A DNA stretch of 64,000 nt, taken from positions 1 to 64,000 of the forward strand of contig JAACJQ010000091.1 in assembly GCA_016879935.1 (NCBI GenBank), written 5' to 3'. The notes beneath the pieces are model-generated. The model ran no database searches. It saw only the letters and a list, made by a program, of their open reading frames with translations, and had not been told where the DNA came from. Positions 6,268 through 54,148 of this stretch are shown one piece after another (positions within the stretch are counted from its first letter, which is position 1; each line of letters begins with the position of its first letter). The DNA is from Archangiaceae bacterium. GTDB taxonomy: Bacteria; Myxococcota; Myxococcia; Myxococcales; Myxococcaceae. A program made the translations under genes and the position numbers.

Positions 6268-6963
6268 ATGCATTTTCTGGGGGCCGACCCGCAGGCGTTC
6301 CCGCCGGCCGAGAACGCCAACGAAGACGGAATCCTCGCGGTGGGAGGCGACCTCTCGCCCATGCGCCTCATCGCGGCGTACCAGCGCGGCATCTTCCCCT
6401 GGTACTCCGAAGGGCTGCCGATTCTGTGGCACTGCCCAGACCCGCGCTTCGTGCTGGTGCCCGAGCGGCTGCACGTGCCGAAGAGCCTCAAGAAACGGCA
6501 GAAGGCCGCGCCGTACCGCCTCACGCTCGACACGGCGTTCGAGCAGGTCATCGATGGCTGCGCAGGCACCAAACGCCCCGGCCAGCGCGGCACGTGAATT
6601 ACCCGCGACATGCGGCGCGCGTACGTCGAGCTGCACGACCTGGGCATCGCGCACTCGTGCGAGGCCTGGCGCGGAGACGAGCTCGTCGGTGGCCTCTACG
6701 GCGTCTCGCTCGGGCGCGTCTTCTACGGGGAGTCGATGTTCGCCCGCGCCGACGACGCGTCGAAGCTGGCCTTCGTGACGCTGGTCGAGTGGCTGCGGAC
6801 GTGGGGCGTCGCGCTCATCGATTGCCAGCAGGAGACCGAGCATCTCGCCCGCTTCGGCGCCGAGCCGTGGCCGCGCGCGGAGTTCCTCGAAGCCGTGGGC
6901 ACGCTCTCGAAGCTGCCGACGAAGCGCGGCAAATGGCACTTCCCCGGTGACGAGCCGGCGTGA
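6268..6963 (+). pseudogene. aat: aat, leucyl/phenylalanyl-tRNA-protein transferase, interrupted by in-frame TGA
   Basis: Translated through, the region gives about 231 residues with a near full-length Aat fold. It includes ANEDGILAVGGDLSP, RGIFPWYSEG, the segment AFEQVIDGCAG, then [17 protein letters not shown]-like [14 protein letters not shown] and [15 protein letters not shown]. Aat moves Leu or Phe from aminoacyl-tRNA to N-terminal Lys/Arg of proteins for N-degron proteolysis. A TGA at 6595-6597 sits in the same frame where the family has a conserved Trp (GT-W-ITR-type). One base change (TGG to TGA) explains it; there is no frameshift. An ATG at 6610, just downstream, could permit reinitiation. 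Possible causes are a real nonsense mutation, an assembly error, or readthrough; the data cannot choose. Confidence 0.85.
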
Positions 6964-7095
6964 GCGCTCTCGCGCGGTGAGAAGCGGGACGGACAGCGGG
7001 ACTCCAGTCTCGAGGTGAAGACGAGCGGCCGCGTGAGTGAGCGCGCTTGCGCGTTCGACCCCGCTGGCATCGTGGCTGCTCTGGCCCCCACGGCG

Positions 7096-8214
7096 ATGAC
7101 GGCGCGCGACCCGCTTCCCAGAATTCTGCCCACGCCACACGACGCGCTCTTTCGCGCAGTGTTCGAACGGGTCGAGGCCGTGCGTGGAGAGTGCCGCGCC
7201 GTACTCCCCGCTGCGGTGCTCGAGCGACTGCATCTGGGGCGGGTGACGACGGTGCCCGGCCACTTCGTCGACGCCGCGCTGCGCACGACCGAGAGCGACG
7301 CGCTGTTTCGGGTCGGCACCAGAACCCGCGAGACCTTCGTCTACGTGTTGCTCGAACATCAGAGCCGCGACGACGCGACGATGCCGCTGCGGCTCTTGCG
7401 GTACATGACCTCCATCTGGGAGCGCATGCTCGCCGAGGATGCGACGCGACCGCTGTCGCCCATCATTCCCATCGTCATCTCGAACGTGCCGGGCGGGTGG
7501 AAGGGGCCTCGGTCGTTTCGCGACCTGTTCGAAGAGACGGGGGGCTTCGACCAGTTCGTGCCGCGCTTCGACTTCATCGTCGACGACTTGTACGAGCTCG
7601 ACGTCGAGGCGCTCAAACGCCGGGAGGTTTCACCCTTCGCCAGACTCGCGTTGTGGGTGATGCGCACGGCGCGCGACGAAGCTCGGCTGCTTCGCGAGAA
7701 CGAGACGTTCAGGCGGGAGCTGCACGCGCTTGCGCTCGCGGCCCCTCGCGATTCAGCCCGCCTGCTGGTGTATCTTGAGTCGGTTTCTCCACAGGCATTT
7801 CAGGTCGTCGTCGACGGGTTGAACACGAGTCGGCAGGAGCACGAACGGATGATCACAGCGATGGACATTTGGCGTGCCGGTCGGCGGGAGGAGTACCTCG
7901 CGCTGATGGAAAAGGGCCTCAAGAGAGGTCTCGAAAAGGGCATCGAGAAGGGTCTCGAGAAAGGACTCCAGAGGGGCCGCAAGGAGGGGTTCAAAGAGGG
8001 ACACGCTGAGGGCCTCGTCGAAGGCGAACGACAAGCGCTCTTGCGGCTCATCGAGCTTCGGTTCGGCCACATCGAACGAAGCCTCTGGGCTCGCATCACG
8101 CAGGCCGCACATGACGACCGCGAAAAGCTGATTCGGGCGCTCGCCGTCGCTGAAAAGCCCGAGCAGCTGGTGCCGGCACGCAAGCCCGCGAGGCGAAGCC
8201 GGAAACGCGCCTGA
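7096..8214 (+). CDS. Rpn family nuclease / putative transposase (PD-(D/E)xK)
   Basis: From ATG 7096 the product has 372 residues; the frame is open to a GTG at 7015, so the start is uncertain. The N-terminal half has the Rpn/YhgA-like layout: TPHDALFRAVF, TESDALFRVG (acidic catalytic position), and YVLLEHQS, which supplies the E-x-Q-type motif of this PD-(D/E)xK branch. Around residues 270-305 is a run of 4-residue KGLE/KGLK repeats, typical of the C-terminal part of the family. Rpn proteins are recombination-promoting DNA endonucleases related to transposases, but no terminal repeats were seen here. The last codons overlap a short stretch similar to the ~107-bp repeat, listed separately. Confidence 0.8.
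   Translation: MTARDPLPRILPTPHDALFRAVFERVEAVRGECRAVLPAAVLERLHLGRVTTVPGHFVDAALRTTESDALFRVGTRTRETFVYVLLEHQSRDDATMPLRLLRYMTSIWERMLAEDATRPLSPIIPIVISNVPGGWKGPRSFRDLFEETGGFDQFVPRFDFIVDDLYELDVEALKRREVSPFARLALWVMRTARDEARLLRENETFRRELHALALAAPRDSARLLVYLESVSPQAFQVVVDGLNTSRQEHERMITAMDIWRAGRREEYLALMEKGLKRGLEKGIEKGLEKGLQRGRKEGFKEGHAEGLVEGERQALLRLIELRFGHIERSLWARITQAAHDDREKLIRALAVAEKPEQLVPARKPARRSRKRA
7906..7992 (+). repeat. 12-nt coding repeat in the Rpn gene (KGLE/KGLK)
   Basis: A run of imperfect 12-base units encodes 4-residue repeats such as KGLKRGLEKGIEKGLEKG. They form a charged, probably helical, glycine-containing tail typical of Rpn-family proteins. Unit number commonly varies between paralogues, so this is a likely slippage hotspot. 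Confidence 0.75.
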
Positions 8215-50611: not shown

Positions 50612-50914
50612 ATGCGTCAATGTCTCGGGTGTGGCGGTCTGGTGCCGACGGAAGCCACCGACTGCCCCAACTGCGTGGTGAGTGCGAAGGCGAGCGGCGT
50701 CGTGCGAAAGGTCGTGCTCGCCGCCGGCACCGTCGCGCTCATGTCGTCGTGTTTCGTCGCCCAGCCGGTGTACGGCATTCCCTGTACGAGCAAGCAGGTC
50801 GACGGCGGAACCACTGGCTGTCCCGGTGAGTGCACGACGCTCAACCCCGACGGCGGAGATCCCCGCAAGGACCCGAGCAACACGGCCTGCTACGTCGACG
50901 GTGGCGTGCCCTGA
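50612..50914 (+). CDS. Small zinc-ribbon / lipobox Cys-rich protein, candidate rSAM partner
   Basis: The 100-residue product starts MRQCLGCGGLVPTEATDCPNC, a C-x2-C-x10+-C-x2-C zinc-ribbon-like knuckle. A hydrophobic stretch with a lipobox-like end follows (VVLAAGTVALMSSC), then a Gly/Asp/Pro/Cys-rich tail ([32 protein letters not shown]). The order zinc ribbon then export signal is unusual. The stop lies exactly at the start of a radical SAM/SPASM gene. Such layout suits a RiPP-like precursor or a maturation substrate, but this is inferred from position and composition. GTG 50561 and ATG 50567 are alternative starts. Confidence 0.6.
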   Translation: MRQCLGCGGLVPTEATDCPNCVVSAKASGVVRKVVLAAGTVALMSSCFVAQPVYGIPCTSKQVDGGTTGCPGECTTLNPDGGDPRKDPSNTACYVDGGVP

Positions 50915-52137
50915 CGCGTGACGAGCTGCTGAGGCGTGTCGAGGTCGGCGCTCCGCATCACCCGCACTACGTCGTCTGGGAGCTGACGCTCGCGTGCGAT
51001 CAGCGCTGTCTGCATTGCGGTTCGCGGGCCGAGCACGCGCGCCCAAATGAGCTCACCACCGAGCAGGCCCTCGACGTCGTCGAGCAGCTCGCCCGCATGG
51101 GCGCGTGGGAGGTCACGCTCATCGGCGGTGAGGCGTACCTGCACCCGGGCTTTCTCGACGTGGTGCGCGCGCTGAGGCGCCACGGCGTTCGTCCGACGCT
51201 GACGACGGGGGGGCGCGGCGTCACGCCTGAGCTCGCGGCGCAGCTCGTAGAGGCGGGCCTGCACTCCGCGTCGGTCAGCATCGACGGCCTCGAGTCGACG
51301 CATGACCTCTTCCGTGCGACCCGCGGCAGCTTTCAGTCGGCGCTCTCGGCGCTCGCGAACCTGCGGTCGGTCGGCATCACCACCGCCGTGAACACGAACT
51401 TCAACCGGCTGAACGTGAGCCAGGTCGACGCGCTCTACGAGCTCGTGAAAGCCAACGGCGCCTCGTCGTGGATGTTGATTCTCACCGTGCCGCTGGGCCG
51501 TGGCGCCGACCGCCCCGACATGCTGCTCCAACCGTGGGACCTGCTCGAGCTGATGCCCGCGTTCGCGCGCGCGAAGGAGCGAGGCCTGAGCGACGGCATC
51601 ATGGTGATGCCGAGCAACACCGTGGGCTACTTCGGGCCCGAAGAGACGTTGCTGCGCTCCCAGGAGCGCGGCCAGGGTGTGCACTTTCAAGGCTGCGTCG
51701 CGGGCCGCTACAGCCTCGGCATCGAAGCCGACGGCGCGGTGAAGGGGTGCCCCTCGCTCCAGACGAGTCACTACGTCGGTGGTTCGCTGAAGACCGACTC
51801 GCTCGAAGCCATTTGGAAGACGAAGCCGCTCGCCTTCGCGCGCACGCGCACCGTCGACGACCTCTGGGGCTTCTGTCGAACCTGCCCGTTCGCGAAGCAG
51901 TGCCTCGGCGGCTGCACGTTCATGTCGCACGCGTACCTCGGGCGGCCGGGCAACAACCCGATGTGTCACTTCCGCGCGCGCTCGCTCGCCGCCGACGGCC
52001 GGCGGGAGCGGCTGGTCTTCAAAGAAGCGGCACCCGGAGCGCCCTTCGACAACGGGCTGTTCGAGATCGTCGAAGAAGCGTTCGACGCGCCCGACCCACG
52101 ACCACCGACGCCTGGCGCGCTCGTCAGGAAGCGGTGA
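50911..52137 (+). CDS. Radical SAM/SPASM maturase-like enzyme
   Basis: The protein of about 408 residues has the radical SAM cluster motif CDQRCLHC (Cx3Cx2C) near residue 30, the [11 protein letters not shown] segment, and a C-terminal SPASM domain ([22 protein letters not shown], then [14 protein letters not shown]). SPASM enzymes modify peptides or enzymes via extra FeS clusters. The sequence resembles maturases that NCBI names by association with small peptides, from memory. No ATG/GTG/TTG lies between codon 50830 and the Cys motif; a CTG at 50911 overlapping the upstream TGA is the best start. It overlaps the DUF255 gene by 14 bases. Confidence 0.85.
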
Positions 52138-54148
52138 GCAGGCGCTCCAGCTCGGCCACGGTCGACACCGGCGCCTGACAGGCAAAGGAGCGACAGAGGT
52201 ACGCAGCGACCTCTGTGCGTGCGGGCCGGCCTTCGAGCACCTCGCGAATGACCGCCGCAACTGGAGCGCCCGTCACGTGCGCGTGCAACGCCACCGTCGG
52301 CAGGTATGTCTTCGCGAAGAAGTTCACGAACGGCGCGAGCGATGGCTGGGCTCCGACGACCGTCACTTCGGGCGCTCCATCGACGAGCGCATCGGCCGCG
52401 AGCCACAGGTGCCCGACCGCCATCGGCTGCTTCGTCAGCTCACCGTGCACCTGCTCGAGATAGAGCCGTGCCTGCTCGAGGTGTCGCGTTCTTCCCGTGA
52501 GCGCGCCGAGCGTCACGAGCGCCTCGGTCAGCGTCGATGCACCCGAGGGAAACGCGTTGTCGTGCAGCACGTACGTCGGCACCAACAGCTCGCCCTGCCC
52601 CTTCGGCGCCGCGAGCCACGCGCGCTTCGACTCGTCCCAGAAGGACGTGACCGAGAGGTCGACGAGCTGCTCCGCCGCCTCGAGGTACCGCGGCTCGAAC
52701 GTCGCCTGGTACAGCGCGACCAGCCCCGAGGCGACGTCGCCGTAGTCCTCCAGCATGCCCTCGATGCGCGCCACGCCGGAGTGGAACGACCGCCACAGCC
52801 CACCATCGGGCCGTCGCATGCGACTCAACACGAAGTCGGCCGCGCGCCGCGCCATCGCGAGCCAGTCAGGGCGACCGAACACGCGCGACGCGAACGCGAG
52901 CCCTCGAATCGTCAGGCCGTTCCACCCCGCGAGCACCTTGTCGTCCGTTCCAGGCCGCACCCGCCGGGAGCGCACCTCGAGCAGCTTCTGCTTCGCGCGC
53001 GTGAGCGTCTCGTTCACGTCATCGGAGCCGACGACCTCGAGCACCGACGCACCATGTTCGAAGTTGCCGCCCGGCTTCACGCCGAAGTGCGTTCTGACGG
53101 CCTGCGACTCCTCCGACGTCAGCACCGCGTCGAGCTCGTCGACGCGCCAGACGAAGAACTTCCCTTCTACACCTTCGCTGTCGGCGTCGTGCGCCGCGAA
53201 GAACGCGCCCTCTGGCGAGGTCATCTCACGCGAAAGCCACGCGACCGTCTCTTCGACCGTCTTCTTCCACAGCGGCCTCGGAGCCACCTGCCACGCCTCG
53301 GCGTACAGATGAATCAGCTGCGCGTTGTCGTAGAGCATCTTCTCGAAGTGCGGCACCAGCCAGCGCTCGTCGACGCTGTAGCGATGGAAGCCGCCTCCGA
53401 GTTGGTCGAACACCCCGCCCTTCGCCATGCGCTCGAGCGTCAGCAACGTGGGCTTCAGAACCGACTCGTCCCGAGTGCGCGCGAAGCCACGCAGCATGAG
53501 CGCGAGGTTCATCGGGTTGGGGAACTTGGGGCCGCGCGTGCCGAAGCCACCGAACTCGGGGTCGACGCGAGACGCGAGCGTGCGCGCAGCGGCCACCACG
53601 TCTTCGGGTTTGAGACTCGCGGGCGCCACTGCATCGAGGCCCCACGCCGCGTACTCGGTGAGGCCCTGCTCGAACTGCTCGGCCTGCTGCAGCAACTCGG
53701 CGCGCTCCTTCGCCCACGCCTCGGCGATGCCCGACAACAACGGCTCGAACCCGGGCAACCCATGCCGCGGGCCGGGCGGAAAGTACGTGCCGCCGTAGAA
53801 CGGCTTCTCCTCGGGCGTGAGGAACACCGTCAGCGGCCAGCCTCCGCCGCGCCCCATCAACTGCACGACGCCTTGATAGAGGTGGTCGAGATCGGGCCGC
53901 TCCTCGCGGTCGACCTTGATGTTCACGAAGTGCGCGTTCATCACGGCGGCGGTCGCGGGGTTCTCGAACGACTCGTGCGCCATCACGTGGCACCAGTGAC
54001 AAGCGGAGTAGCCGACCGAGAGCAGAATCGGCTTCTGCTCACGCTTCGCCTTCTCGAGCGCCTCGGCGCCCCACGGGTACCAGTCGACGGGGTTGTCGGC
54101 GTGCTGCCGCAGGTAGGGCGAGGTCTCGGACGCGAGCCGGTTGGGCAT
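52124..54148 (-). CDS. DUF255 thioredoxin-like / YyaL family protein
   Basis: The 674-residue protein starts with the conserved [21 protein letters not shown] and [11 protein letters not shown], a thioredoxin-like CxxC motif. The longer C-terminal region (about 230-660) resembles the (alpha/alpha)6-barrel of N-acylglucosamine epimerase-like proteins. YyaL/spermatogenesis-associated 20 homologues have this architecture; a redox role is plausible but the biochemical function is uncertain. It converges with the rSAM gene with a 14-base overlap. Its ATG at 54148 lies 33 bases past the NlpC/P60 gene's stop on the same strand. Confidence 0.85.

Follow-up and report, generated by a model that had tools for sequence, protein, structure and literature searches.

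What does a small cysteine-rich protein have to do with the radical SAM/SPASM enzyme encoded directly behind it, and which of its residues would such an enzyme change? In the window (the whole stretch of 64,000 nucleotides that was analysed, contig 443 of a 9.5 Mb genome in 445 contigs), the ORF of a small, predicted exported substrate protein of 100 aa (50612..50914, + strand, stop codon included) runs into an enzyme gene on the same strand (50911..52137), and both the ORFs and the Pfam matches agreed with the initial annotation on this arrangement. Its statement that the small gene stops precisely at the beginning of the enzyme is correct for the conserved part of the latter, which starts at about 50914; the start codon itself may be CTG 50911, which overlaps the TGA of the small gene, or GTG 50830, which lies inside the small gene and is the only in-frame ATG, GTG or TTG between 50830 and 51000. 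The genes on both sides of the pair are on the opposite strand, and therefore the pair is a stand-alone two-gene cassette. The adjoining ORF at 52124-54148 (− strand), which we take to be of the DUF255/YyaL type, encodes a thioredoxin-like protein without a homolog on the stretches around the relatives of the cassette.

The small protein begins with a zinc-ribbon knuckle in leader position, C4-x2-C7-x10-C18-x2-C21 (C18-P-N-C21; 50621..50674, + strand), recognized by its invariant Cys residues and the AF2 model. The knuckle is followed by a basic/hydrophobic stretch, the lipobox-like L-M-S-S-C47 and then QPVYGIPC. The hydrophobic segment with the lipobox-like motif (50711..50752, +) was delimited by hydropathy (the best hydrophobic 17-mer is residues 34-50, with a mean KD of 2.12) and by the T-L-M-A-C of relatives. 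The triplet V53-Y54-G55 within PVYGIP (50768..50776, +), located after Cys47, is the predicted tyramine-excision site, based on the YG-blind leader matches described below and on the XYG motif as given in the available part of PMC10533398. These residues, which carry most of the following argument, were absent from the initial annotation. The remainder, delimited by ORF and alignment, is a Cys/Gly/Asp-rich tail (C58, C70, C74, C93 and DGG; 50783..50911, +).

A search of 145 genomes of the order with the window enzyme gave matches at E<=1e-60 in 41 of them; the small protein had matches at E<=0.01 in 15 of the 145, and those of 1e-18 or better directly adjoin the enzyme. A leader profile was built from 22 sequences truncated ahead of the CYG cysteine, so that it was blind to YG, and was run on 195 genomes of the phylum together with the window enzyme, whose clade was defined by at least 55% identity. 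The genomes were mostly drafts, and E-values of the genome searches were calculated per single genome. The profile gave 38 matches at E<=1e-9 in 35 of the 195 genomes. Thirty-four of these 35 encode the clade enzyme (truncated by contig ends in G050), and in the 35th, G184, an enzyme fragment adjoins the leader (L159). Strong leaders were found in 34 of the 36 genomes with a clade enzyme, the other two (G053 and G161) having the enzyme as a fragment and at a contig end. No strong leader occurred in a genome lacking both enzyme and enzyme fragment, so that the small protein does not form a stand-alone family, and the co-occurrence in other genomes that the initial annotation proposed to look for was thus observed.

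At the level of loci, the leader protein lies within about 300 bp of the enzyme at 39 of the 42 clade loci, as expected from the enzyme–substrate-type coupling suggested initially. The 40 leaders at these 39 loci are upstream and co-directional in 18 cases, divergent in 21 and downstream in one (L007, where the enzyme ORF ends at 7212 and the leader begins 35 bases later, at 7247). No leader was present on the stretch examined at L081, L011 and L162; L162 is at a contig end, and the genome of L081 (G137) has a leader on another contig (L158). Two pairs of entries, L005 and L013 as well as L009 and G050:C403, are identical in sequence. Six of the seven ORFs flanking the cassette in the window have no homolog on the stretches at other loci and one recurs at 7 loci. 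Since a leader profile without YG finds such proteins next to this enzyme clade across many genomes, the pairing exceeds chance and, as judged from sequence comparison, the two genes are a real enzyme–substrate-type pair. Some loci deviate from the one-to-one arrangement. At L009 (G050), a single enzyme is preceded by two zinc-ribbon/XYG substrates in tandem. On L158, L175 and L176 (G137 and G089), zinc-ribbon/XYG leaders are on enzyme-free contigs with the enzyme elsewhere in the genome, and these are possibly unlinked extra substrates.

No significant Pfam or NCBIfam match was found for the small protein, and none of 31 aligned substrate proteins matched NCBIfam at E<=0.01. The Pfam zinc ribbon DZR scored 13.2 of the 27.3 bits of its gathering cut-off with the window protein and was matched at E<=0.1 by 13 of the 31. 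Invariant in all 31, the window protein included, are C4, C7, G9, P12, C18, C21, Y54, G55 and C70, although for Y54 and G55 this is circular, as the seed substrates were first picked by YG-requiring patterns. AF2 modelled the small protein with low confidence (mean pLDDT 65; about 79 for residues 1-20). The consensus of a bacterial lipobox is [LVI]-x-[AGS]-C. The internal lipobox noted initially is borne out as far as the hydrophobic segment and L-M-S-S-C47 are concerned, but it is imperfect, having Met at −3; T-L-M-A-C is present in 29 of 41 leader matches, and some leaders have N at −1. The tails range from Cys-rich pieces of 40 residues to long domains (L006-L008); the suggested search for conserved tail residues yielded the invariant C70 on the one hand and replaced tails on the other. 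A constant zinc-ribbon/hydrophobic front joined to widely differing tails fits what would be expected of a leader. From these features the small protein is probably exported and membrane-anchored; it would be lipidated or surface-exposed, and its zinc ribbon would be read by the enzyme.

The initial annotation suggested the Cys/Asp-rich tail as the modified part, but the likely site is the X-Tyr-Gly that follows the hydrophobic segment and is retained as the tails change. Among the distinct matches of the YG-blind profile (E<=1e-9, all loci), 40 of 41 have YG at most 18 residues past the matched segment, compared with 1678 of 141042 random windows (1.2%), a figure that is partly circular because the 22 profile rows were drawn from the YG-requiring seeds. 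In these proteins YG adjoins the hydrophobic segment. The sole exception, L040/L106, is missing the segment. At this locus (G135) no CYG segment is present in the substrate and the enzyme contains an in-frame TGA, representing either a decaying pair or an assembly error. Support free of circularity came from two sources: the four leaders found by the YG-blind profile alone (L158, L159, L160 and L161), all of which have CYG, and a motif-density control. In the latter, the frequency of YG.{1,3}P was 0.87/kb up to 1.3 kb from 86 enzyme matches and 0.22/kb at a distance of 2.5-6 kb (189 in 217 kb near versus 94 in 433 kb far), the contrast being less sharp per locus, where 76 of 86 had at least one near and 48 of 70 had one in the larger far zone. 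Residue X in the clade is C in 30 cases, V in four, L in three, I in one and A in one, and Y and G are constant; the variation of X beside constant Y-G suggests a Tyr/Gly-centred reaction, as in splicing.

Below the threshold the signal became mixed. The next five leader matches (3e-8 to 2e-3) had YG in three cases and none in L177 and L010. Of 29 weaker matches (1.5e-8 to 1e-3) four were viewed, with YG in the second copy of G050, G089:C973 and G089:C384 and none in G162, and the remaining ones may be ordinary zinc ribbons. Assigned by eye, an XYG-bearing partner or tail accompanies 73 of 85 enzyme loci; none was found at the other 12 (L106, L125, L010, L011, L081, L097, L098, L119, L166, L174, L162 and L127). 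The enzyme fragment L009 was left out of this tally and of both trees, the fragments L121 and L122 out of all tallies, and the outgroup row out of the 85. An LRDFYGLPPGT stretch near L125 was considered as a substrate and rejected, as it sits in a gene annotated as a phosphotransferase.

The enzyme (50911..52137) matched Radical_SAM (7e-23) and SPASM (7.6e-8) in Pfam. Its CxxxCxxC motif for the SAM 4Fe-4S cluster is at 50995..51018 (+; C28/C32/C35 in alignment numbering, invariant in 60 sequences) and its SPASM domain (PF13186) at 51694..51888 (+). The AF2 model (mean pLDDT 92.3) is nearest to SkfB (Z 28.3), SuiB (27.4) and anSME (26.8), a comparison that barely covers the model past residue 356, and the modelled fold is as expected of a peptide-modifying SPASM enzyme. 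In NCBIfam the top match was TIGR04103 (nif11-class maturase 3; 420 bits, E 6.5e-126), a model matched at E<=1e-30 by all 65 aligned homologs and which we take to be the same as IPR026482. The enzyme fell short of the cut-off in each of three families: TIGR04103 reached 420 of 725 bits, and the partner is not of Nif11 type; TIGR03913 (GDL maturase) reached 400 of 591.75 bits, and the substrate lacks GDL; TIGR04133 (rSAM_w_lipo) reached 145 of 425 bits. Thus, by sequence the window enzyme is a relative of TIGR04103 and not an equivalog, and since the TIGR04103 and TIGR03913 scores are nearly equal and both under cut-off, the reaction does not follow from family membership alone. In a 66-row tree the enzymes with zinc-ribbon substrates formed one clade of 33 rows (support 100/99), beside which stood a group (97/88) of GDL (TIGR03913), TIGR04103 and other enzymes; this tree was made after dropping 20 of 86 rows, the long ones among them, and an earlier tree, which included a distant outgroup, contained a terminal branch of length 10. 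The best match in the plasmid collection was a Nostoc enzyme annotated as nif11-class maturase 3 (46.9% identical), which adjoins a Nif11 precursor ending in IALYGLPPELF and is followed by a 71-aa ORF.

Tyramine splicing is the loss of C8H9NO (about 135 Da) at XYG. From the motif, the pairing and the enzyme family we consider it probable that the enzyme is a PlpX-like tyramine-splicing radical SAM/SPASM splicease that has the 100-aa protein as its substrate. The product was initially thought to be of an uncharacterised kind; motif and family point instead to tyramine splicing, and the cassette appears to be an atypical version of a protein-splicing chemistry already known from bacteria. The sub-cut-off TIGR04103 score, with GDL family TIGR03913 about as near, would also accord with a different Tyr reaction at XYG, such as a C-C or ether crosslink or oxidative decarboxylation. 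However, the P-V-Y-G-I-P context resembles the PlpA-derived tags and the Nostoc enzyme labelled nif11-class maturase 3 stands beside an LYG-x-P core, and we therefore regard such a reaction as unlikely.

The substrates of sister enzymes bear on a second alternative. Sister enzymes often adjoin peptides with XYG cores in up to 10 repeats: (M/L)YGVFI peptides (L083-L085, L091, L163), AM(K/R)YGLxRP and ARYGVIRPP repeats (L086-L088, L090, L092), GG-leader peptides ending in (I/D/K/R)YG(L/I)PP (L094-L096, L099-L102, L114-L116) and 10 repeats of (L/M)YG (L117). In the window's own genome (L093, contig 161), a partner carries VYG(A/M)P four times, ahead of a hydrophobic segment at its C-terminus; the L093 enzyme is the third of this group in that genome. 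The DUF1843 peptides seen next to the enzymes of Azospirillum and Aureibacter number six, three of them with YG and three with YM or YA. A similar protein of about 96-100 aa (YLLKVND.. SNYGYP) lies downstream of the XYG-repeat cassettes L088, L090 and L117. At the contig edge of L013, a 92-aa reverse-strand ORF has a zinc-ribbon remnant, two VYGAxP sites and a C-terminal hydrophobic segment, and is possibly a second substrate in the nearest relative of the window; it had no match in 142 genomes, in a search without a positive control that is hence uninformative. SkfB is a thioether-forming maturase, and its presence among the fold matches, together with the four Cys of the window tail and the invariant C70 of the 31 aligned proteins, would suit an enzyme making thioethers or other Cys-centred crosslinks in the tail, as in sacti- or ranthipeptides, with XYG serving for recognition only. 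Against this, the sister-enzyme substrates L093, L094 and L099 have no Cys in the sequence displayed yet keep XYG, and YG is retained where the tails are replaced (L006-L008), making this reading slightly less probable still than another Tyr reaction. That the genes are mere neighbours and the small protein a generic myxobacterial DGG lipoprotein, as its low-complexity-looking DGG/DAG tails and poor AF2 model (pLDDT 65) might hint, is very improbable in the face of linkage at 39 of 42 loci, in differing gene orders and with hardly any common flanks, and of the lack of strong leader matches in genomes without enzyme or enzyme fragment.

Returning to splicing as the preferred reading, the position of the ribbon proved variable. 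The pattern C..C.{7,14}C[PVA].C was found in three of 86 enzyme ORFs, C-terminally in Azospirillum and Aureibacter and N-terminally in Tropicibacter. It was in no clade enzyme scanned, the clade substrates carrying the ribbon instead, and at no locus scanned were enzyme and substrate both ribbon-bearing, a count that for L125 covers the enzyme alone. L125, with the ribbon on the enzyme, and L165, with the ribbon on a substrate having three XYGxPP sites, are sisters (100/99), and their ribbons are identical at 20 of 42 positions with 9 gaps. These sequence relationships hint at a ribbon that may serve for docking and have switched between enzyme and substrate. In Sphingomonas (L010), a zinc-ribbon ORF follows the enzyme in a different frame (within 6704-7360, +); this ribbon resembles the C-terminal one of the Azospirillum enzyme.

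Seven enzymes, 36-39% identical to the window enzyme, form a further clade (support 100/100) in which the SPASM domain is followed within the same ORF first by a hydrophobic segment, lipobox-like in most of them, and then by a Cys-rich tail (12-57 Cys) with XYG, where X is mostly Asp or Glu. The tails have three (L120), seven (L167), five (L168), five (L169), six (L171) and eight (L172) XYG sites, and L118 has three after one in-frame stop. By their ORFs these are apparent enzyme–substrate fusions, and their origin from six family codes of the phylum argues against assembly chimeras. They have the same layout as the window pair, with the enzyme standing where the zinc ribbon is.

In the proposed mechanism, the zinc ribbon and the basic/hydrophobic segment would act as leader and export signal. 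The ribbon would hold the precursor for the cytosolic enzyme, which would splice V53-Y54-G55 next to the membrane anchor and leave a reactive beta-amino acid there, and export would follow splicing. In the MACYG relatives, cleavage by signal peptidase II may take place ahead of the spliced Cys, which would probably be lipidated there and be the X of XYG; the mature protein would begin with a lipid-bearing alpha-keto-beta-amino acid, placing a reactive ketoamide at the membrane anchor and showing the tail outside the cytoplasm. In the fusion clade, enzyme, lipobox-like segment and XYG-repeat tail would make one self-modifying protein. We hold it possible rather than probable that all this constitutes a membrane branch of splicing, with zinc-ribbon-leader lipoprotein precursors, a lipidated Cys that is the spliced residue in MACYG proteins, a ribbon that moved and one clade that modifies itself. 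Spliceotides have been reported as protease inhibitors (PMC10373908, PMC11117315, as far as their accessible text goes), and by analogy an anchored protease inhibitor or covalent trap may be named as a tentative first guess at the function. If the splicing reading is true, the cassette would be a widespread myxobacterial, membrane-displayed form of spliceotide, in which a genetically encoded alpha-ketoamide electrophile is fixed at the cell envelope and signal peptidase II is a plausible leader peptidase. It would also add a leader type to the Nif11 and nitrile-hydratase-like ones, as well as splice enzymes without a PlpY-like neighbour or with a built-in substrate, and the natural role of splicing would become testable in culturable relatives. 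According to the part of a 2022 review that was available, no natural spliceotide had been isolated and the role was unknown (PMC8868522).

Compared with known systems, the lipoprotein partner of TIGR04133 enzymes belongs to the family TIGR04134. The Bacteroidetes TIGR04133 systems are alike in joining a radical SAM/SPASM enzyme to a lipoprotein, but the window enzyme (145 bits) is under the cut-off of 425 and the 31 substrates have no NCBIfam match at E<=0.01. The GDL/DUF1843 systems (TIGR03913) have a homologous enzyme (44.6% identity to that of Azospirillum) and YG in three of the six DUF1843 peptides; they differ in having the zinc ribbon at the C-terminus of the enzyme and not on the substrate, and in peptides without an obvious hydrophobic segment. 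In the spliceotide and radical SAM–lipoprotein literature, as far as its partial coverage reaches, a zinc-ribbon/XYG family was not found described, so priority is uncertain. XYG is the tyramine-excision motif of spliceotides made by PlpX/PlpY, and known leaders are Nif11 or nitrile-hydratase-like (PMC10533398, PMC11002830, in the sections available). Several XYG tags in FtsZ, LYG among them, were unspliced by PlpXY at the sites tried (PMC10533398, available sections), so the motif alone is insufficient. Unlike the Pleurocapsa precursors, the window substrate has no Nif11 or nitrile-hydratase-like leader but a zinc-ribbon leader, a hydrophobic segment with a lipobox-like motif and a Cys-rich tail, and no PlpY-like gene was seen beside the window pair, the two neighbours viewed being an uncharacterised protein and that of 52124-54148. 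The likeness to PlpA/PlpX/PlpY of Pleurocapsa lies in two features: a TIGR04103-like SPASM radical SAM enzyme in both, as judged by family model and by the placement of PlpX in IPR026482 (PMC11002830, in part), and the P-x-Y-G-x-P context that QPVYGIP of the window shares with the PlpA-derived P-x-Y-G-L-P tags used with PlpX (PMC10533398, in part).
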